Shown piece by piece: positions 44,808 to 55,666 of a stretch of 64,000 bases of DNA (its first letter is position 1; each line of letters opens with the position of its first letter). Location of the stretch: positions 6,882,001 through 6,946,000 of the forward strand of contig NZ_CP137734.1 in the NCBI RefSeq assembly GCF_033406955.1, written 5' to 3'. Position numbers and translations under genes: made by a program. This stretch comes from Streptomyces violaceoruber (lineage in GTDB: Bacteria; Actinomycetota; Actinomycetes; Streptomycetales; Streptomycetaceae). The notes under the pieces were generated by a model, which did no database searches, was not told the DNA's origin, and saw only the letters and a list, made by a program, of their open reading frames with translations.

Positions 44808-46235
44808 GTGAGCGAGCAGCCTCGTCGTCCCCGCAAAACCGGCAAGCCGTACCGCAGGCCCCAGAAGGACCCCGTCCGCATGCTCGCCTTCGAGGCGCTC
44901 AGGGCCGTGGACGAGCGGGACGCGTACGCCAACCTGGTCCTGCCGCCCCTGCTGCGCAAGGCACGGGAGAAGGAGGGCCCCGAGAAGTTCGACGCCCGGG
45001 ACGCGGCCCTCGCGACCGAGCTGGTGTACGGGACGCTGCGGCGGCAGGGGACGTACGACGCGATCATCGCGGACTGCGTGGACCGGCCGCTGCGCGAGGT
45101 CGACCCGCCGGTGCTCGACGTCCTCAGCCTGGGCGTGCACCAGCTGCTGGGGACGCGCATCCCGAGCCACGCCGCCGTCTCCGCCTCCGTGGAGCTGGCG
45201 CGGGTCGTGCTCGGGGACGGACGGGCCAAGTTCGTCAACGCCGTGCTGCGCAAGGTCGCGCGGGACGACCTGGACGGCTGGCTGGAGCGGGTCGCCCCGC
45301 CCTACGACGAGGATCCCGAGGACCACCTGGCCGTCGTGCACTCGCACCCGCGCTGGGTCGTCTCGGCGCTGTGGGACTCGCTGGGCGGCGGCCGGGCCGG
45401 CATCGAGGAACTGCTGGCCGCCGACAACGAGCGCCCCGAGGTCACCCTCGTCGCGCGGCCGGGCCGGGCCACCCGCGAGGAGCTCCTCGGCGAGGAGGCC
45501 GCCGTACCGGGGCGCTGGTCGCCGTACGCGGTGCGGCTGAGCGAGGGCGGCGAACCCGGGGCCGTCGAGGCCGTGCGGGAGGGCCGCGCCGGGGTGCAGG
45601 ACGAGGGCAGCCAGCTGGTCGCCCTGGCCCTCGCCAACGCGCCCCTGGACGGACCGGACCGGCGCTGGCTGGACGGGTGCGCGGGGCCGGGCGGCAAGGC
45701 CGCGCTGCTCGGAGCCCTGGCGGCCGAGCGGGGTGCCTTCCTGCTGGCCTCCGAAAAGCAGCCGCACCGCGCCGGGCTCGTGGCCAGGGCCCTGGACGGC
45801 AATCCCGGCCCCTACCAGGTGATCGCCGCCGACGGGACCCGCCCGGCGTGGCGGCCCGGGAGCTTCGACCGCGTCCTGGTCGACGTGCCGTGCACGGGCC
45901 TGGGCGCCCTGAGACGCCGGCCCGAGGCGCGCTGGCGGCGTCGCCCCGAGGACCTGGACGGCTTCGCCCCGCTCCAGCGCGGGCTGCTGCGCAATGCCCT
46001 GGAGGCCGTACGGGTCGGGGGCGTCGTCGCCTACGCGACCTGCTCGCCGCACCTCGCCGAGACCCGCGCCGTCGTCACGGACGTCCTGAAGCAGCACCCC
46101 GGCACCGAGCTGCTCGACGCCCGGCCGCTGCTGCCCGGCGTCCCCGGCCTCGGCGAGGGACCCGACGTCCAGCTGTGGCCGCATGTGCACGGCACGGACG
46201 CCATGTACCTGGCGCTGCTGCGCCGGACCTCCTGA
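44808..46235 (+). CDS. rsmB: 16S rRNA (cytosine(967)-C(5))-methyltransferase RsmB
   Basis: 475 residues. The N-terminal NusB-like RNA-binding domain covers about 25-170 (VRMLAFEALRAVDERDAYANLVL). The SAM-binding fold has LDGCAGPGGKAALL, and both RsmB cysteines are present: C362 in VPCTGLG and catalytic C412 in YATCSPH. The GTG 44808 start has GGAG ten bases upstream. It ends 20 bases from the convergent trypco2 gene. Confidence 0.95.
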   Translation: MSEQPRRPRKTGKPYRRPQKDPVRMLAFEALRAVDERDAYANLVLPPLLRKAREKEGPEKFDARDAALATELVYGTLRRQGTYDAIIADCVDRPLREVDPPVLDVLSLGVHQLLGTRIPSHAAVSASVELARVVLGDGRAKFVNAVLRKVARDDLDGWLERVAPPYDEDPEDHLAVVHSHPRWVVSALWDSLGGGRAGIEELLAADNERPEVTLVARPGRATREELLGEEAAVPGRWSPYAVRLSEGGEPGAVEAVREGRAGVQDEGSQLVALALANAPLDGPDRRWLDGCAGPGGKAALLGALAAERGAFLLASEKQPHRAGLVARALDGNPGPYQVIAADGTRPAWRPGSFDRVLVDVPCTGLGALRRRPEARWRRRPEDLDGFAPLQRGLLRNALEAVRVGGVVAYATCSPHLAETRAVVTDVLKQHPGTELLDARPLLPGVPGLGEGPDVQLWPHVHGTDAMYLALLRRTS

Positions 46236-46254
46236 ACGACGTCGTCGGGCGGCT

Positions 46255-46551
46255 CTAGCGTCTGCTCACCTTCACCCGCTCCCCGCCCGCCAGCTCCGGT
46301 TTCAGGTCCACCTGGACCTGATGGGTGGTCTGGTGGTCGACGGAGCCGCCCAGTTCGGCCGTCACCACGCCGATACGGACGCCGCCCCGGCCGCTGCCCG
46401 CGCGGTGGACCTGCACGGTGAAGGTCAGGCTCACGTTCTCCACGGCGAAACCGAGGTCCCGGCCCTCCGCGTCGGCGCGGGCCTCCTCCAGTTCGCCCCG
46501 GATCCGGCCGATCACCTCGGCCAGTCCCACGAAACCCGGTTCGTTCGTCAA
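46255..46551 (-). CDS. Trypco2 family protein (trypsin-co-occurring)
   Basis: 98 residues: an N-terminal helix (GLAEVIGRIRGELEEARADAEG) followed by beta strands (LGFAVENVSLTFTVQVHR, VVTAELGGS, HQVQVDLKP). This matches the small trypco2 family, which computational work has found next to trypsin-like proteases in bacterial conflict and signalling loci. The start is a TTG with a consensus GGAGG four bases upstream, so ATG-based gene calling would miss or mis-start it. It is divergent from the protease gene and shares its operator region. Its biochemical role is unknown; a protease partner or regulator is likely. Confidence 0.85.
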   Translation of the reverse strand: MTNEPGFVGLAEVIGRIRGELEEARADAEGRDLGFAVENVSLTFTVQVHRAGSGRGGVRIGVVTAELGGSVDHQTTHQVQVDLKPELAGGERVKVSRR

Positions 46552-46580
46552 TTCGCCTCCGTACAAAGCCCGTTCACTCT

Positions 46581-46600
46581 TGTCGCAGCAGTATGCGACA
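46581..46600. promoter_or_regulatory. Inverted-repeat operator between trypco2 and protease operon
   Basis: TGTCGCAGCAGTATGCGACA is a perfect 7-bp inverted repeat around six bases. It lies 30 bases from the trypco2 start and 27 from the protease start, over the expected -35 of the protease promoter, so a bound repressor could control both directions. Confidence 0.65.
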
Positions 46601-46614
46601 GGAGCAGACGCCCG

Positions 46615-46620
46615 TATAGT
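46615..46620 (+). promoter_or_regulatory. -10 element TATAGT of the protease operon, probably giving a leaderless mRNA
   Basis: TATAGT is near consensus and ends seven bases before the ATG at 46627, so transcription would begin at or next to the start codon. No ribosome site is present, consistent with a leaderless transcript. Confidence 0.6.
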
Positions 46621-46626
46621 TCGCAT

Positions 46627-48729
46627 ATGGCTGCTGGCGGGGGAGGCCCGGCCGTCTCGCCGATGGCGACGCCGAGCTGGGCGGTGCGGATCCGGGGAGC
46701 GGACGGGGAGATCGCGGGGGCCGGCATTCTGCTGACTCCGCAATGGGTGCTCACCTGCGCCCACGTGGTGGACCGGACGGCGGACGTGATGACCGCGGAG
46801 TTCGTCGGCGCGGTCGGCCACGGCGTGCCCGCGGTCCCCGCCAGGCTGGAGCGCGACGCCTACGTGCCGGAGACGCTGGACGCCGACGGGGACCCCAGCG
46901 GCGACGTGGCGCTGCTGCGGCTGGAGCGGCCCCGCCCCGCCGAGGAAACGGTTCGGCTGCACCGGCTGTCCGCACCCAACCGTGAGGTGCGGATGTACGG
47001 CTTCCCGTACGAGCACAACGGCGGCATCTGGTTCCGCGCCACCGCCGTCGGGGTCTGCGGACGCGACGGACAGGTGCAGCTGATCCCGGCCAGCCCCGGT
47101 GAACTGGCCAGCCCGGGGTGCAGCGGTGCGGGCGTCGCCGACAGCGACACCGGCGAGGTCATCGGCATGGTGCTCAGCGGCCAGGAGGACCGGCACGGCA
47201 ACCGGTTCTCCTTCATGAGTCCCGTCGAGACCATCGTGCGCCACCTGCCCCGGCTCGACCCCGTCACCACGGGCCCCAGCGCCGTCGACCCCCAACTGCG
47301 GTCCACCGCCGACGACATACTGCCGGAGCTGCTCGACCGGCCGTTCGCCCAGCGTCTCGCCGCCTGGCTGCGCGACGACGGCAGCCAGGTGAAGATCAGC
47401 GTCGTCCGGCACGGCGACGCGGCGCGCGAGGCCACCCTGCGCCGCGCCATCACCCTCGCCGACCGCGAGCTGCGCACACCGGTCTCCGTCGACCGGGCCT
47501 CGCTCGACCCGCCGGGCACCGTCCCGTCGGCCGGCGGTCACGACCTCGCCGTCTACGCGGAGGGGCGGACCTCGGCCGGAATCGCCGAGCGGATCGCCGA
47601 ACGCCTGGGGCTGCCGCACCCGGAGGAAGCCCCGCTGGAACGCATCCGCGCCGCGAGGGCCATCCTGAACCTGGTCGTCGTCGGAGTCGACGAGGCGGTC
47701 GATCCGCTCGGCGTGCTCGACCTGCTGGACGTGCTGCGTGCCGACGGCAGCCGCCTGCTGCTCGTCCTGCGCACGGCCGGGGACTGCCACCGCCGGGCCC
47801 GCGAGCAACTGCTCACCGAGCCCGAGCGGGGGCGGCGTGCCCGGCTCGTCGAGCGGCTGAAGGAGATCACCGGTCCGCTCGCCGAGGACCTGCGCGAACG
47901 CCTCGCCGCCGTGGCGCCCCAGGGCCTGCGCCCCCTCGACTCCGACCTGGTGGCCGCACACGCCGCCCTCGCCGACCTGCTCCGCGCGGCGGACGCTGCG
48001 GATCACGACGGGGAAGGCCAAGGGGAAGCGCTCCCCGGACCCGGCCCGGACCTCGCGCGGTACGAGCGGCTGGCCGACCGGGTCGAGGGCCGGCTGACGG
48101 CGGGTGTCGCGGCACTCGACCGGCTCCGCGACCGGCGCGACGAACTCGCCGGGCGCCTGCGGAGCTACCAGGTCATGCACCAGCACTCCCTGCGGGGCGA
48201 GGAGGACCCGGCGGTGGACGGCCTCTACCTCCGGGCCCACACCCTGCTCCGGGCGAGGCCCTGCGACGTGCGCGCGGCGGAAGCGGCGGTGGACGCCTAC
48301 ACCCGGCGCGTCGACGGCCACGCCGGAGCCACCGGACCGGTCGCCCGGGACGGGCACGGCGCCCGGGACGGTCACGAGGACGGGTACGGGTCCGGTGACG
48401 GCCGCGGAGCCCGGGACGGGGACAGCGGGGAGGACGGCCGCGGAGCCAGAGACGCGTACGGCGCCCGGGACGTCCACGGCGCCCGGGACGGGCATGGCCG
48501 AGGAGACGACGGCCGCGGTGCCCGGCCTGGTCACGGGACCGGGGACGGTCGCGGGGCCGGGGATGGCGGAGGGGACGGGCAGCGAGCCGGGGACGGTCAC
48601 GGCGCCCGGGACGGCTGCGGCGCCGGGGACGGCTGCGGCGCCCGGGACGGGTACGGCGCCCGGGACGGGTACGGCGCCGGGGACGGCTGCGGCGCCCGGG
48701 ACGGGTACGGCGGAGGGGATGCGTCATGA
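46627..48729 (+). CDS. Trypsin-like serine protease with degenerate NTPase-like region and Gly/Asp/Arg repeat tail
   Basis: 700 residues without a signal peptide, so cytoplasmic. A trypsin domain (about 15-215) has H46 (LTCAHVV), D93 (GDVALL) and S166 (GCSGAG), an intact triad. Residues about 235-400 resemble a STAND/AAA fold that has lost its P-loop: ISVVRHGDAAREATLRRAI stands where Walker A is expected, and NLVVVGVDEAVDP looks like Walker B. A helical segment (about 470-560) ends in the conserved ARPCDVRAAEAAVDAYTRRVD. Residues 573-700 are GARDGY/GAGDGC-like repeats. It is the first gene of the operon with the PknG-like kinase. Confidence 0.85.
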   Translation: MAAGGGGPAVSPMATPSWAVRIRGADGEIAGAGILLTPQWVLTCAHVVDRTADVMTAEFVGAVGHGVPAVPARLERDAYVPETLDADGDPSGDVALLRLERPRPAEETVRLHRLSAPNREVRMYGFPYEHNGGIWFRATAVGVCGRDGQVQLIPASPGELASPGCSGAGVADSDTGEVIGMVLSGQEDRHGNRFSFMSPVETIVRHLPRLDPVTTGPSAVDPQLRSTADDILPELLDRPFAQRLAAWLRDDGSQVKISVVRHGDAAREATLRRAITLADRELRTPVSVDRASLDPPGTVPSAGGHDLAVYAEGRTSAGIAERIAERLGLPHPEEAPLERIRAARAILNLVVVGVDEAVDPLGVLDLLDVLRADGSRLLLVLRTAGDCHRRAREQLLTEPERGRRARLVERLKEITGPLAEDLRERLAAVAPQGLRPLDSDLVAAHAALADLLRAADAADHDGEGQGEALPGPGPDLARYERLADRVEGRLTAGVAALDRLRDRRDELAGRLRSYQVMHQHSLRGEEDPAVDGLYLRAHTLLRARPCDVRAAEAAVDAYTRRVDGHAGATGPVARDGHGARDGHEDGYGSGDGRGARDGDSGEDGRGARDAYGARDVHGARDGHGRGDDGRGARPGHGTGDGRGAGDGGGDGQRAGDGHGARDGCGAGDGCGARDGYGARDGYGAGDGCGARDGYGGGDAS
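48343..48717 (+). repeat. Coding minisatellite of the protease C-terminus
   Basis: A 375-base array in which GGCGCCCGGGACGG-type units recur; the last 150 bases are a clean 18-bp period (six-residue GARDGY/C or GAGDGC). It is stop-free in several frames. Length variation between strains is expected. Confidence 0.88.
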
Positions 48730-48778
48730 CACCGAGAAGGTCCCGGCGCGACCCGCGGCCGCACGGGGAGCCCGCGGC

Positions 48779-51151
48779 ATGAGCGGAAGAGCCTGCGCCA
48801 GAGCCGACTGCCGGGGCGGCCACATCATGGTCACCGGGTTCTGCGACACCTGCTTCCGCCGTCCCCTCGCGCCCGAGCCCACCGCCACTCCACCCGATCC
48901 CGACCCCGACCCGGCCGGACCCGACGCACGGGGCCCCCGGCCCGCGCAGGGCCCGGGGGCCCCGGCCGCCGGAGAGCTGGACCGCGACGGACTGCTGGTC
49001 CTGCCCCACCTCCCCTCCCCGGACCCCTCCGAGGCCGCCGACACCGTCGCCCGGCCCCCCACCGGCGGCCGGCGCTGCGGCGTCGACAACTGCGCCGGCA
49101 CCATCGGTGTCTCCTACGACGGCGGCCCCGCGCCCGACCACGGGTTCTGCCCCGAGTGCGGGACCGAGTACTCGTTCCGGCCGAAGCTGCGCCCCGGAGA
49201 CCGGGTCGCCGGGCACTACGCGGTGCTCGGCTACCTCGCCGTCGGCGGCCACGGCTGGGTCTACCTCGCCGAGGACACCCGGGTGCCCGGCCTGCACGTC
49301 GTCCTCAAGGGCCTGATCAACACCGGCGACGCCGTGGCCCGCCGGGCGGCCGTCGAGGAGCGCCGCTCGCTCACCACGCTGCACCACCGCGACATCGTCC
49401 GCATCGTCACCCACGTCCAGCACCAGGTACCCGGCGACGCCGAACCGACCGGCTACATCGTGATGGAGTACGTCGGCGGCCGGTCCCTGTCCTGGATCCG
49501 CTTCGCCCCCGAGGAGGAGCTGGCGCGGCTGTTCGGCACCGGCGGCTTCGAGTTCGGGCACGTCATCACCTACGGCTGCAAGATCCTCGGCGCCCTGGAG
49601 TACCTGCACGACCGGGGCCTGCTGTACTGCGACATGAAGCCCGAGAACGTCATCCACTACGGCCGGGAGATCAAGGTCATCGACCTGGGCGCCATCCGCC
49701 GGATCGACGACCGCTCCTCCGGGCTCGTCCACACCCACGGATACGCCCCGCCGAAGCGCGAACGCGACCGGCGCGGACTCGACGTCGACAGCGACCTGTA
49801 CACCGTCGGCCGGACCCTCAAGGTGCTCGCCGAACGCGCCGCCCGGCCCGCCGGACTGGCCGCCCGCTCCTTCGAGGCGCTGATCCGCCGCGCCACCCAC
49901 CCCGAGCCCGCCGCCCGGTTCCGTTCCGCGGCCGAGATGGCCCGCCAGCTGTGGGAGGTGCTGCGCGAGGACCAGGCACTCGGCGGGCGCGAACCGTATC
50001 CCGAGCGCTCCACCCGCTTCGAGCCCACCGCGGCGGTCTTCGGCGCCGCCCTCGGCACCGTCCCGGCGCTCCAGTGGTGGACCCGACGCCCCGGAACCGG
50101 GACACCCGAGCTGCCGGCCGGCGCCCCCGAACCCCGGGCGGCGGCCCGGGCCCTGCCGGTCCCGCTCCCCGACGCCTCGGACCCGGCGGCCGTACTGCTC
50201 GGCGGGCTCGCCGCGGACACCCCCGACCGCATCGCCGAACGGTCGGCGGGCGACCCGGCGCTGCGGACCGTGGAGACGGCGCTGTGGCTGTGCCGCGCCT
50301 ACCTGGAGGCCGGGGACGCCGCGCGGGCCGAGGAGTGGGTGGCCCGCGCCAAGGGGTGGAGCGGCGACTACGACTGGCGGATCTTCTGGCACCGGGGACT
50401 GATCCACCTCACGCGCGACGCGGTGGACAAGGCGGAGGACGAGTTCGCCGCCACCTACGCGGCCCTGCCCGGCGAGGCGGCGCCCAAGCTGGCGCTCGGC
50501 TTCTGCGCCGAGTACCTCGCGGAGCGGCCCCGCGAGTCCGCCGGAGAAGGAGGCGGACCGGCCGACGCGCAGGCGGCCGCACGGATGCGGGCGCGTCAGG
50601 CGCAGGCCGAGGAGTTCTACGAGGCCGTCCTGCGCCGCGACCCCACCCAGGGCAGCGCCGCCTTCGGACTGGCCCGGGTCCGGCTGCGCCGCGCCGGACG
50701 CCGCCCGGCCGTCGACGTCCTGGACGGCGTGCCCACCACCTCCCGGCACTACGACGCCGCCCGCGTCGCGGCGGTGCGGATCCTGACCGGCAGGCTGCCG
50801 GACCGGCCCGCCCCGCTCGCCGCCGAACTGCGCGAGGCCGCCGAACGGCTGGCGGGGCTGCACCTGGACGGCAGCGGGTCCTGGGACCGGCTGGTCACCG
50901 AACTGCGCGAGCACGCGCTCGCCTGCCGCCCGCCCGGCGGCTGGGGGAGCGGCTTCCCCGCCGGCGAGCTGTGCGGCCCACAGGACACCGAGGAGGCGCT
51001 GCGCCGGCTGCTGTCCGCGTCGCTCAGACGCCTCGCCGACCAGGCGGGTGGCGTCGGCGAGCGCGGCGACCTGCTGGACACCGCGTACGCGGTGCTCCCG
51101 GCACCGGCCGGGCTGCGCGAGCTGGTGCGGGGGTGGCGGCGTACGGCGTGA
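48779..51151 (+). CDS. PknG-type serine/threonine protein kinase with zinc motifs and TPR domain
   Basis: 790 residues. Two Cx4C...CxxC clusters (C6/C11/C22/C25 and C100/C105/C124/C127) form rubredoxin-like modules. The kinase domain (about 140-400) has the Gly loop LAVGGHGWVYLA, K177, the catalytic loop YCDMKPENV (D285) and DLG in place of DFG (D302); YTVGRTL follows, all as in mycobacterial PknG. A TPR region fills about 450-790. No membrane segment is seen. ATG 48779 has GGAG eight bases upstream; ATG 48719 overlapping the protease is possible. Confidence 0.9.
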   Translation: MSGRACARADCRGGHIMVTGFCDTCFRRPLAPEPTATPPDPDPDPAGPDARGPRPAQGPGAPAAGELDRDGLLVLPHLPSPDPSEAADTVARPPTGGRRCGVDNCAGTIGVSYDGGPAPDHGFCPECGTEYSFRPKLRPGDRVAGHYAVLGYLAVGGHGWVYLAEDTRVPGLHVVLKGLINTGDAVARRAAVEERRSLTTLHHRDIVRIVTHVQHQVPGDAEPTGYIVMEYVGGRSLSWIRFAPEEELARLFGTGGFEFGHVITYGCKILGALEYLHDRGLLYCDMKPENVIHYGREIKVIDLGAIRRIDDRSSGLVHTHGYAPPKRERDRRGLDVDSDLYTVGRTLKVLAERAARPAGLAARSFEALIRRATHPEPAARFRSAAEMARQLWEVLREDQALGGREPYPERSTRFEPTAAVFGAALGTVPALQWWTRRPGTGTPELPAGAPEPRAAARALPVPLPDASDPAAVLLGGLAADTPDRIAERSAGDPALRTVETALWLCRAYLEAGDAARAEEWVARAKGWSGDYDWRIFWHRGLIHLTRDAVDKAEDEFAATYAALPGEAAPKLALGFCAEYLAERPRESAGEGGGPADAQAAARMRARQAQAEEFYEAVLRRDPTQGSAAFGLARVRLRRAGRRPAVDVLDGVPTTSRHYDAARVAAVRILTGRLPDRPAPLAAELREAAERLAGLHLDGSGSWDRLVTELREHALACRPPGGWGSGFPAGELCGPQDTEEALRRLLSASLRRLADQAGGVGERGDLLDTAYAVLPAPAGLRELVRGWRRTA

Positions 51152-51209
51152 GCACGCGAGCACGTGACGGTGCGAGGCAGCGACGACGTGGGCGAGGGGG
51201 CACGCAGAC

Positions 51210-52685
51210 GTGGAGACAGGAACGCCCCGGACGGGCGAGGCGGCCGGACAGGTGGCCGCCGGACTGGAGATCAGCCAGTGGAAGTACCTGCCCGGCGAGG
51301 CGGGCGACCCGCAGATGCACGCCATCCTCAGCGTGCGCGTGGACGGCACCGGGGGCGACGGCCACCCGGGCGGCCCGGTACTCGCGCAGGTGCTGGTCAT
51401 GGACTGCTCCAGCTCGATGACCTGGCCGGTGGAGAAACTGCACGCGGCACAGCGGGCGGCCGTCGCGGCGATCCGCAAGCTCCCCGACGGCACCCCGTTC
51501 GCGGTGGTCCGGGGCAACGAGCAGGCGGCCGTGGTGTACCCGGACACCCCGCGCATGGCCCGCGCTTCCGCCCGCACCCGGTCGCGGGCGGAACGCGCCG
51601 TGCGCGAGACGGTCGCGGGCGGCGGCACCTGCATCGGCGCCTGGCTGGACCTGAGCCGCCGGCTGCTGACGGAGCAGGACGCCCCCATCGGGCACGTCCT
51701 GCTGCTCACCGACGGCAAGAACCAGCACGACGAGCAGATGCCGCTCGCCCGGGTGCTGGAGGAGTGCGCGGGCCGGTTCGTCTGCGACGCCTGGGGCATC
51801 GGTGACGGCTGGGACGGCCGGGAACTGCTGCGGATCACCAGCCGACTGCACGGCAGCGCCTCGTCCGTGCGCGAGGAGGAGGCCCTGCCCGGTGAGTACG
51901 AGCAGCTGATGAACCGCCTGCTCACCAAGACCGTCCCCGAACTGGTCGTCTCCGTGACCGCCATGCCCGGGTGCACCGTGCGCTACCTCAAACAGGTCTT
52001 CCCCACCGAGGCGGAGCTGACCGCCGAGGACGGCACCGGCCGGTTCGTCACCCGGGCCTGGGGCGACGAGACGCGCCGCTACCAGCTGTGCCTGGCCGCC
52101 GACCCGACCGGCCGCCCACGGGGGGAGGACCTCCAGCTCGCCGTGGTCGCCGTCGACGTACCCGGCGGCCGCGAGGTCCGGCTGCCGCCGCCGCGGCCCT
52201 GCCTGGTGCACTGGACCGACGACCCGGCCCTGTCCCGGCACACCGACGCCCAGGTCGAGCACTTCGAGCAGCACCAGCGGCTCGGCGAGGCCGTCGCCGC
52301 CGCCACCGACGCCCACCGCCGAGGACAGCGCGACCTGGCCGAACAGCAGCTCGGCCGGGCCGTGCGGCTCGCCCACGCCATGGGCGCCGACGAGCAGCTG
52401 ACCCGGCTGGCCCGGCTGGTGCGGATCCAGGACGCGCCGTCCGGCCGGGTCGCCCTGCGCCCCGAGGTCACGGCCGTCGACTTCCAGCACCTGATCACCG
52501 CGAGCAGCCACAGCACCTACGGCCCCGCATCCGGCACCGGCACCGGCGTCGGGACCGGCTCCGGTGCGGCAGGCGGCGCGCCGGGCGGCGGGGCCACCGT
52601 GCCCTGCCCGGCCTGCTCGCGGAAGGCTCCGGCGGCCGCCCGGTTCTGCCCGGCCTGCGGCCACCGCTTCGGGGCGCGGCCGTGA
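51210..52685 (+). CDS. von Willebrand factor A domain protein with C-terminal zinc ribbon
   Basis: 491 residues. The vWA domain (about 35-230) has the MIDAS motif D65-C-S67-S-S69, GGGTCIGAW and LLTDGKNQH, so metal-dependent ligand binding should be intact. A beta-rich region follows, then a helical segment (about 340-410, QHQRLGEAVAAATDAHRRGQRDLAEQQ). A Gly/Thr linker leads to a CPAC-x10-CPAC zinc ribbon at the extreme end. It lies 58 bases after the kinase and overlaps the next gene by four bases (GTGA). It is probably a cytoplasmic adaptor in the same pathway. Confidence 0.9.
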   Translation: METGTPRTGEAAGQVAAGLEISQWKYLPGEAGDPQMHAILSVRVDGTGGDGHPGGPVLAQVLVMDCSSSMTWPVEKLHAAQRAAVAAIRKLPDGTPFAVVRGNEQAAVVYPDTPRMARASARTRSRAERAVRETVAGGGTCIGAWLDLSRRLLTEQDAPIGHVLLLTDGKNQHDEQMPLARVLEECAGRFVCDAWGIGDGWDGRELLRITSRLHGSASSVREEEALPGEYEQLMNRLLTKTVPELVVSVTAMPGCTVRYLKQVFPTEAELTAEDGTGRFVTRAWGDETRRYQLCLAADPTGRPRGEDLQLAVVAVDVPGGREVRLPPPRPCLVHWTDDPALSRHTDAQVEHFEQHQRLGEAVAAATDAHRRGQRDLAEQQLGRAVRLAHAMGADEQLTRLARLVRIQDAPSGRVALRPEVTAVDFQHLITASSHSTYGPASGTGTGVGTGSGAAGGAPGGGATVPCPACSRKAPAAARFCPACGHRFGARP

Positions 52686-53620
52686 GCACCACCGGCCGGG
52701 ACCTCGTCCGCAGACTCAGGCTGCTGCTCGTGCTGGCGACCGCGACCACCCTCGCGCTGTTCTTCGCCTACCGCGGCGTGCACGACGACACCGTTCCGCT
52801 GTCCACCGCGAGCACGCCCGGAATCCGCGCCGTCGACACCGCGCAGAGCGCGCTGCGCCAGGCGAACGCCGTGGTCCGCGAGACCGGCGCCGAGGGGGAC
52901 ACCAGCGGCGAGTTCCTCACCCAGGTCTCGGTCGCCCAGCAGAGCCTCGCCCTGGCCGCCTCGGAGAACGTCACCGGCCTGGCGGGCCGCCACGACGTCC
53001 AGACCGTCACCGGGCTGATCGCCGTCTACTCGGGCTGGGTGGAGCGCCGGGGCCGCGAACCGGAGGGCTCACCGCTGCGCGCGGCCTTCCTCCACTACGC
53101 CGAGAAGGTCCTCGGTCTCGAGGCCGAGGCCGGAACCGAGGGCGACATCATGAGCCGCCTGGACGCCCTGCGCGGCGAACAGCTGGCCGAGGCCCGGCGG
53201 CAGGCCGCCTTCCCCTGGCAGCTGTGGCTCGGCTGGTGCACGGTCGCGGTGCTGTACGCGGCCCTGTGCGGGGCGCTGCTGGAGAGCCAGCGGTTCCTGC
53301 GGCGCCGCTTCCGGCGGCCCGTGCAACTGCGGTTGCTGGCCGCCACCGCGGTGTGCGCCGTCGGCGTGCCCGTACTGGCCTGGCAGACCGTCTCGGCACA
53401 CCGAGCGATGACCGACTCCGTCGCCGAGGTACGGGTGCCGCCGGCCGCCCCGGAGGCCATCCCCGAGGTGGCCGACGAGGTGCAGGGCGCGCTCGCGGAC
53501 GCCGGGTTCTGGGCCTCGCTGTCCGACTGGATACTGCTGGGAGGGGCCGTGGTGGTGGCGCTGACGCTGTGGGGGCTGTGGCCGCGGATCGCCGAGTACC
53601 GGTTCCGGGGACGGCGATGA
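52682..53620 (+). CDS. Four-helix membrane protein with extracellular sensor-like loop
   Basis: 312 residues. Transmembrane segments lie at about 13-30, 181-200, 216-234 and 283-300. The positive-inside rule puts the N- and C-termini (VRRLR, RFRGRR) and the basic RFLRRRFRRP loop in the cytoplasm, leaving a 150-residue helical loop (31-180) and a short second loop outside. The layout suits a sensor or signal transducer. The GTG start overlaps the vWA stop and the end overlaps the solute-binding gene (ATGA). No catalytic motif. The architecture recalls mycobacterial GlnX, but homology is not shown. Confidence 0.83.
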   Translation: MSTTGRDLVRRLRLLLVLATATTLALFFAYRGVHDDTVPLSTASTPGIRAVDTAQSALRQANAVVRETGAEGDTSGEFLTQVSVAQQSLALAASENVTGLAGRHDVQTVTGLIAVYSGWVERRGREPEGSPLRAAFLHYAEKVLGLEAEAGTEGDIMSRLDALRGEQLAEARRQAAFPWQLWLGWCTVAVLYAALCGALLESQRFLRRRFRRPVQLRLLAATAVCAVGVPVLAWQTVSAHRAMTDSVAEVRVPPAAPEAIPEVADEVQGALADAGFWASLSDWILLGGAVVVALTLWGLWPRIAEYRFRGRR

Positions 53621-54822
53621 GCCGCCCGGGCGCCCGCACCCTGGGCATCCTCTGCGTCTGTCTGGTCCTGCTCGGCGCCGGGGTGTACGCCGGGGTGCGC
53701 TGGGCGCGCGACTGGCAGGGCTCGGTCACCCTGCTCGCCAACTGGAGCGGCACGGAACGCGAGCAGTTCGAGGAGCACGTCATCGAGCCGTTCGAGGAGA
53801 AGTACCGGATCGACGTCGTCTACCAGGGCAGCTCCGCGCTCAGCCAGGTGCTGGCCGCCGACATGGCGGCCGGCAACCCGCCCGACGTGGCGGTGCTGCC
53901 CGGCCCCGGCGAACTGCTCGCCTACGCCGTCGACGGCCGGCTCCACCCGCTGGACGGCCTCTTCGACGCCGGGGACTACGACCGGTTCTGGGCTCCCGAG
54001 GTCACCGTGCCGGGGCAGGGCGCCCACACGTACTGGCTGCCCGTGAAGACCGGCCTCAAGAGCATGGTCTGGTACGCCGGACCGGCACCGACGGCCGGGA
54101 CGGCCGGCCCTCCCGCACGGTGGTGCGCAGGCCTGGAGTCCGGCGCGACGTCCGGCTGGCCGGGCACGGACTGGGTCGAGGACATCCTGCTCCAGCAGGC
54201 CGGCCCACGGGTGTACGAGGAGTGGGCCAACGGCAGGCTGCCGTGGACCGACGACGCCGTGCGCAAGGCCTGGACGACCTGGGCCGACCTGGTGGGCGCG
54301 GGCGACCGAGCCCGCGTCGAGCAGGTGCTGACCACCGCCTTCGACGCCGACTGCGCGCCGGGCAGCCTGGAACACCAGGGTTCCTTCCGCGCCGGGCACT
54401 GGCGGCAGGAGGGCGGCGACCACGTCCACTCCTCCGAGGTCGTGCCCGGGGCCGGAGCGGACGCCGGCGCCTGGGAGGTCTCCGGCGACCTCGCGGCCGT
54501 ACTGAACCCGACCCCGGAGGCCGAGCGGCTGATCCGCTACCTCGCCGATCCGGACACCGCGCTGCCGGAGTACACGGCGAACAGGTCGGCCGCGGCCGAC
54601 GCCGACCAGGACGCCACCGAGCGGGAGATCTGGGCCATCCTGCGCGAACCCGGCCGGACCCGCTGCTGGGACGCCTCCGACGCGATGCCCCGCACCACCC
54701 GCGACGCCTTCCACCTGGCAGTACTGCGCACCTTCGCCGACCCGACGGCCCTGGACACCCGCCTCAGAGAACTGGACCGCCTGCGCGAACCCCAGAACCT
54801 CCCTGTCTGCGGCGCCGTCTGA
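53617..54822 (+). CDS. Membrane-anchored extracellular solute-binding protein, no transporter partner
   Basis: 401 residues. A signal-anchor (about 8-27) is present but there is no lipobox: no Cys follows the hydrophobic core at the right place. The body looks like a family 1 (MalE-type) binding protein: [68 protein letters not shown] and a helical C-terminus. No permease or ATPase gene is near, so it more likely senses than imports. The ATG overlaps the upstream membrane-protein gene. Confidence 0.87.
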
Positions 54823-54855
54823 ACGGGGGCTTCTTGTAGTCCGCGTCCACTGGAC

Positions 54856-54887
54856 GCGCCCCAGAGGGGCGCGGGGAACTGCGCGAG
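54856..54887 (+). repeat. Dispersed intergenic repeat, copy 2
   Basis: Hairpin GCGCCCC (54856-54862) / GGGGCGC (54866-54872) running into GGGGAACTGCGCGAG, 33 bases after the solute-binding gene stop. It matches copy 1 almost base for base and may terminate the operon. Confidence 0.75.
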
Positions 54888-54979
54888 CAACCCGCCACCG
54901 GGCCCGCGGCCGACGAACAACCCCGACCACCCCGGACCCATCCCGGCCCACCCCCGGAGGGCATGGCAGGCTTGGGCCC

Positions 54980-55666
54980 ATGGCCGCGCAGATCAACCCC
55001 AGCATCCTGTCCGCCGACTTCGCCCGCCTCGCGGACGAGGCCAAGGCGGTCGAGGGAGCCGACTGGCTCCACGTCGACGTCATGGACAACCACTTCGTCC
55101 CGAACCTCACGCTCGGTGTGCCGGTGGTCGAGTCCCTGGCCCGCGCGACCGACACCCCGCTCGACTGCCACCTGATGATCGAGGCCCCCGACCGCTGGGC
55201 GCCGCAGTACGTGGAGGCGGGCGCCGGTTCCGTCACCTTCCACGCCGAGGCGGCCGCCGCGCCGGTGCGGCTGGCCCGGGAGATCCGGGCCAAGGGCGCC
55301 CACGCGTCCATGGCGCTCAAGCCCGCGACGCCGGTCGAGCCCTACGAGGACCTGCTCCCCGAACTCGACATGCTGCTGATCATGACGGTTGAACCCGGCT
55401 TCGGTGGGCAGGCGTTCCTGGACATCATGCTTCCCAAGATCCGCCGCACCCGTGAGCTGATCAAGAAGCACGGTCTGGAGCTGTGGCTCCAGGTCGACGG
55501 CGGTGTCTCGGCGGCCACGATCGAGCGGTGCGCCGACGCCGGAGCCGACGTCTTCGTCGCGGGGTCCGCGGTGTACGGGGCGTCCGACCCGGCCGAGGCG
55601 GTACGTGCACTGCGCACGCAGGCAGACGCGGCGACCGCCGAGGCATCCTGGTCCTGCGACCACTGA
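54980..55666 (+). CDS. rpe: Ribulose-phosphate 3-epimerase
   Basis: 228 residues of TIM-barrel epimerase. The N-terminal [13 protein letters not shown], the metal-ligand [14 protein letters not shown] and [10 protein letters not shown], the [10 protein letters not shown] segment and the final VDGGVS block are all intact. It interconverts ribulose- and xylulose-5-phosphate in the pentose phosphate pathway. The ribosome site is weak (GGAGGG lies about 20 bases up). Confidence 0.96.

Follow-up and report, generated by a model that had tools for sequence, protein, structure and literature searches.

In mycobacteria and corynebacteria, amino acids are sensed by the GlnH-GlnX-PknG system (PMC6069109, PMC9769921). 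What triggers bacterial Ser/Thr kinases is a long-standing question, and this system is among the few worked examples of signalling from a solute-binding protein (SBP) to a kinase. We analyzed a six-gene locus on a 64,000-nucleotide stretch of the Streptomyces violaceoruber genome (contig NZ_CP137734.1); "the window" means this whole stretch, and coordinates are positions in it. Like GlnH-GlnX-PknG, the locus encodes, in one operon, a PknG-type kinase with a TPR domain, a membrane protein with four transmembrane (TM) helices and an external helical bundle, and an anchored SBP without a transporter. The two differ in the SBP, which is of the SBP_bac_3 type in the known system and of the SBP_bac_1 type in the window, and in the number of external bundles, two as opposed to one. 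In addition, the window locus encodes a trypsin-like protease, a vWA protein and a Trypco2 protein, and its kinase falls in a separate clade. The new element relative to the known relay is the protease/vWA partner. On balance, we favor the view that the locus is a second, divergent PknG system, in which a relay from the SBP through a GlnX-like protein to the kinase would control a protease/vWA complex.

The protease side of the locus resembles a different set of systems. Trypco2 was defined beside trypsins in MoxR/vWA conflict systems by Kaur et al. 2020 (PMC7159879), and the VMAP/iSTAND ternary systems in that work, like the window locus, place a trypsin-like protease beside Trypco2, vWA and a degenerate NTPase-like domain. 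In contrast to those systems, the window locus combines a PknG kinase with a sensor outside the cell, and neither MoxR nor VMAP was found by Pfam in the operon or in the flanking genes that were scanned, which sets it apart from the VMAP/iSTAND ternary type. In Streptomyces, the SBP-linked Ser/Thr kinases SCO1468 and SGR_4432 were noted in a single sentence in 2018 (PMC6069109), which covers the kinase-SBP linkage alone and describes no membrane protein, protease, vWA or Trypco2. A search of open-access papers, which leaves out most subscription journals, turned up no account of the six genes as a system. A preliminary description of the locus, made from its sequence alone, had known of no account of this combination; the link between kinase and SBP had already been noted at SCO1468. 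Judging by gene order, SCO1468 is probably this locus.

Sensor, kinase and binding protein

The membrane protein (312 amino acids, aa) had no Pfam match, and a search of the PDB with its profile also found none. It crosses the membrane with four TM helices and has a single external bundle of helices (residues ~37-175) and a C-terminal GLWPRIxEYR motif, and a C-terminal segment ending in E-Y-R is common to it and GlnX. The NCBIfam GlnX model NF058618 matched with 51.8 bits (E 6.8e-14), below its cut-off of 250 bits. Profile-profile comparison (hhalign) with canonical GlnX gave a probability of 97.8 (E 1.1e-12), the alignment covering the first external bundle and TM2-TM3. The long helices of the AlphaFold2 model (pLDDT 83) agree with four passes through the membrane and a single bundle of helices outside it; a Foldseek search of the PDB with this model returned nothing significant (long-helix noise). 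In other words, the protein shares with GlnX the four TM helices, the EYR-type C-terminus and a homologous first external bundle, and departs from the helical tandem module of two external four-helix bundles, since its second loop has only ~45 residues. These comparisons make it a distant GlnX homologue and, because GlnX of C. glutamicum has two bundles (PMC9769921), a reduced relative. The preliminary description had recognized the four helices and large external loop and had suggested a pathway related to that of GlnH, GlnX and PknG, which the profile comparison now supports.

The kinase consists of an N-terminal zinc ribbon, a rubredoxin domain, a kinase domain with a DLG motif and a TPR domain, and matched the PknG core structure (PDB 2pzi) with an E-value of 9e-84. 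The Lys/Glu/Asp/Lys/Asn/DLG residues were conserved in 30 of 30 homologues, and the rubredoxin cysteines in all 27 of those having a rubredoxin domain. With the rubredoxin, kinase and PknG TPR domains and the catalytic residues all present, the protein is of the PknG type, as had been proposed. Its start is probably at 48779, with 48719 as an alternative, because the former gives an N-terminus (MSGRACARADC...) like the canonical Streptomyces kinase start (MSEAGRTCQRPGC...) and has GGGGAG upstream. In the phylogeny, canonical kinases from Streptomyces and from other actinobacteria made up one branch (100/100) and the window-type Streptomyces kinases another, so the window kinase is not in the clade of canonical PknG orthologues.

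As had been predicted, the SBP is anchored and belongs to family 1 (SBP_bac_1) rather than family 3, which distinguishes it from GlnH, an SBP_bac_3 amino-acid-binding lipoprotein. It has an N-terminal TM anchor, and some homologues have a lipobox; lipobox matches by regular expression in L041-L047 (labels L### denote homologous loci and G### genomes) were discounted because they fall inside the TM segment. The nearest solved structures are saccharide-binding proteins, and because these match only weakly, a saccharide-type ligand, judged probable by family, is a soft guess. No ABC transporter was present at the locus, in agreement with the earlier reading, and a two-query search of limited sensitivity found permease-like open reading frames in the vicinity of just 2 of the 80 homologous loci, in each case on the opposite strand and more than 2 kb away.

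Co-inheritance, fusions and a canonical paralogue

An SBP-anchored scan of genome contigs yielded 80 best loci, from Streptomyces, Actinacidiphila, Amycolatopsis and one Pseudonocardiales metagenome genome. The same gene order was found in dozens of loci at ~30-98% identity, a recurrence far beyond chance. Co-occurrence was counted in the 64 loci with at least 8.5 kb upstream, where the SBP is present by construction and the query has no bearing on the other genes. PknG and the membrane protein were each found in 64 of 64, so that the lack of co-occurrence that would have told against a linked pathway was not seen; trypsin was found in 50 and vWA in 49, and all were on the SBP strand. Twenty-six loci had trypco2, in every case divergent from and adjoining a trypsin gene. 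Trypsin and vWA were both present in 48 loci, both absent in 13 and discordant in 3 (Fisher p ~1e-10, a value that overstates independence because the loci are related). Two of the discordant loci contain assembly gaps (L096 and L142), and the third (L116) is a fusion locus. The five genes have diverged to almost the same extent, and their pairwise distances were correlated, with r of 0.94-0.98.

Several neighboring genes were fused. The membrane protein and SBP shared one open frame in six loci (L053, L085, L086, L087, L136 and L150), and trypsin and PknG formed one frame of 1184 codons in L116. These fusions hint, independently of gene order, that the neighbors act jointly. What looked like fusions in L056, L078 and L096 were put down to open frames arising by chance or to gaps in the assembly, and were discarded.

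Orthologues of the membrane protein were identified by its profile in 70 of 199 Streptomyces genomes, and a class-wide sample gave matches in 15 of 297 genomes in all, few of them outside Streptomyces. Phylum-wide matches to the SBP profile were not used as a census, as many are likely to be ordinary sugar-transport SBPs. By these counts, about one third of Streptomyces appear to carry the mobile, co-inherited set. In the window it is flanked by rsmB and rpe (46235-54980). Because rsmB and rpe are side by side in several genomes without the cassette at that site, it probably inserted as a unit; three of these genomes (G117, G047 and G093) carry it elsewhere. The site between rsmB and rpe may be a hotspot for insertions: the two genes adjoin in some genomes, but in L221, L223, L224, L226 and L231 there was no rpe within 1.5 kb, yet the cassette is absent there.

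The genome that holds the window contains a second PknG and a clear GlnX elsewhere (locus L035), in the order GlnX, GlnH (SBP_bac_3), a 444-aa coiled protein, PknG, PP2C, vWA and FHA. This canonical operon (L035:1737-13190) holds, with PknG, PP2C and FHA (plus vWA), a full kinase-phosphatase-reader set. Its PknG (~42% identity in the kinase region), vWA (37%) and GlnX are homologous to those of the window; unlike the window operon, it has PP2C, FHA and GlnH, its GlnX is 454 aa, and it lacks a protease and Trypco2. Because one genome keeps both, the window operon is a divergent paralogue. A C-terminal module (ELRGRL...PCD...AE.AV) is common to the 444-aa protein and the trypsin protein (57 bits), so the protease appears to have been grafted onto a module that was already part of the PknG operon. 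The gene for this coiled protein (L035:9280-10614, minus strand) lies between those for GlnH and PknG, and homologues also occur near PknG in L065 and L070; it is possibly an undescribed PknG partner.

The protease module and locus layout

The five same-strand genes and the divergent trypco2 are arranged as first described (Table 1). The vWA/membrane protein and membrane protein/SBP junctions each overlap by 4 bp, PknG and vWA are separated by 58 bp, and trypsin and PknG either overlap by ~11 bp or are 49 bp apart, according to the kinase start.

Table 1. Features of the locus, with positions in the window and supporting matches
Feature	Position	Strand	Basis
Trypco2 gene	46255-46551	-	98 aa, PF19631; TTG start after GGAGG; Pfam 84 bits
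Divergent promoter region (75 bp)	46552-46626		Between trypco2 and trypsin genes
Cytoplasmic trypsin-like protease gene	46627-48729	+	Pfam Trypsin and Trypsin_2
18-bp tandem repeat, coding for variable tail of trypsin protein	48342-48719	+	
PknG-type Ser/Thr kinase gene	48779-51151 (alternative start 48719)	+	PknG_TPR 178 bits, Pkinase 68, PknG_rubred 34
vWA protein gene	51210-52685	+	Pfam VWA_3; MIDAS D65-x-S-x-S, T140, D168; C-terminal zinc ribbon
GlnX-like membrane protein gene	52682-53620	+	NCBIfam GlnX E 6.8e-14, hhalign, AlphaFold2 pLDDT 83
Membrane-anchored SBP gene	53617-54822	+	SBP_bac_1 56 bits; N-terminal TM anchor

The trypsin protein begins with the protease domain (residues 17-203; triad H46, D93 and S166), followed by a degenerate P-loop/STAND-like domain (~250-385), a coiled coil, the C-terminal LRG..PCD..AE.AV module (~480-565) and a variable tail of ~120 residues (~572-700) made of Gly/Asp/Arg-rich repeats. 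No signal peptide was evident. The triad, described earlier as intact, was kept in 26 of 26 homologues. In the AlphaFold2 model (pLDDT 86, pTM 0.80), the protease fold is followed by an alpha/beta domain, in which a Walker-B-like strand (VVVGVDEA) remains although the P-loop is destroyed, and by a long C-terminus made of helices. Its degenerate STAND label is tentative because Pfam gave only sub-threshold matches to NPHP3_N, a STAND-like NTPase (E 0.05-0.3), and Foldseek matches with the model were dominated by the trypsin fold and did not settle the middle domain. The repeat tail is absent in L038 and L039; in the window, the 18-bp minisatellite encoding it is open in two frames and sits directly before the kinase gene. 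The MIDAS positions of the vWA protein, which was also correctly described as carrying a zinc ribbon, were mostly intact across homologues.

Trypco2 is the only one found in the genome, and its gene stands beside that of the trypsin-like protease, as in known trypsin-Trypco2 pairs. A consensus scan of the region between them found no sigma-70 match. A -10-like box, CGTATAGT, conserved in the closer related loci by visual comparison, stands 6-8 nt before the trypsin ATG, which suggests a leaderless trypsin mRNA. A leaderless mRNA has been reported for glnX of C. glutamicum.

Proposed relay and alternatives

By analogy with GlnH-GlnX-PknG (PMC9769921, PMC6069109), the anchored SBP would bind an extracellular ligand, probably of saccharide type, and dock on the helical bundle that the GlnX-like protein exposes outside the cell. 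The GlnX-like protein would report this binding across the membrane to the kinase, which would receive the signal through its TPR domain. The kinase would in turn control a cytoplasmic complex of vWA and trypsin, so that an outside cue leads to local proteolysis, and Trypco2 may restrain or escort the protease. What the sequences themselves show is PknG and GlnX homology, SBP anchoring, intact active sites, co-inheritance and the two kinds of fusion. Joint loss and the one trypsin-PknG fusion tie the protease and vWA to the kinase. The direction of the relay, phosphorylation of the protease/vWA complex, the role of Trypco2 and the ligand are inferred, and so is the order in which the kinase acts on the protease and not the protease on the kinase. 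The pathway from binding protein through membrane protein to kinase, suggested in the preliminary description, gains support from GlnX homology, the six membrane protein-SBP fusions and the canonical paralogue. The full claim, that an outside ligand regulates intracellular proteolysis via the SBP, the GlnX-like protein, the kinase and vWA/trypsin, is put forward as a tentative possibility.

Several observations weigh against the scheme. The SBP is of family 1 rather than family 3, the membrane protein is far under the curated GlnX cut-off (51.8 versus 250 bits) and has no second external bundle, and the cassette has no FHA protein or phosphatase. In addition, those Streptomyces loci that lack trypsin and vWA fall within the clade of loci with the protease, so the protease module was probably lost jointly; the sensor-kinase can therefore function in its absence, and its main substrate may be a different one. 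One such locus put through Pfam (L110) also lacks the rubredoxin domain. Amycolatopsis loci L105, L107 and L108 consist of PknG, membrane protein and SBP alone, and their kinase, without rubredoxin (Pfam on L105), branches nearer the canonical kinases.

It is unlikely, though precedented (PMC6069109), that the sensor axis works as proposed but the kinase output is metabolic, as in canonical PknG acting on GarA/OdhI-like FHA proteins, with protease and vWA as accessories, for example in turnover or maturation of the sensor complex. The three-gene loci of Streptomyces and Amycolatopsis show that the protease is dispensable, but about three quarters of loci retain trypsin and vWA, the two are lost together, and trypsin is once fused to the kinase; moreover, the genome already owns a canonical operon with PP2C and FHA.

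We consider it improbable that the locus is a conflict or altruistic-death system, in which the protease is a lethal effector freed when an outside threat is sensed, as in VMAP-type trypsin-Trypco2 systems. Kaur et al. 2020 (PMC7159879) describe parts similar to the trypsin-Trypco2 pair and to the degenerate, STAND-like domain, and patchy distribution and unit insertion would fit. However, there is no MoxR, VMAP, nuclease or pore protein, and the input is an extracellular SBP rather than an intracellular sensor. The earlier suggestion of proteolytic or conflict-type signalling is thus hinted at by the trypsin-Trypco2 pair, but PADLOC gave only generic kinase and protease matches at the locus. 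Finally, a cassette that moves as a unit could carry unrelated genes, but it is very improbable that shared transfer alone unites an SBP for scavenging with a kinase-protease pair unrelated to it, given a core kept in 64 of 64 loci down to ~30% identity in differing genomic contexts and the fusions of neighbors.

For transmembrane signalling, a second, independently diverged version of the SBP-to-kinase relay, with another SBP family, a one-bundle transmitter and natural fusions, is a tractable system. If the protease is the output, regulated proteolysis joins what PknG-type kinases control, in about one third of Streptomyces; this would be a new PknG output and, in bacteria, a relay from kinase to protease under the control of an extracellular cue.

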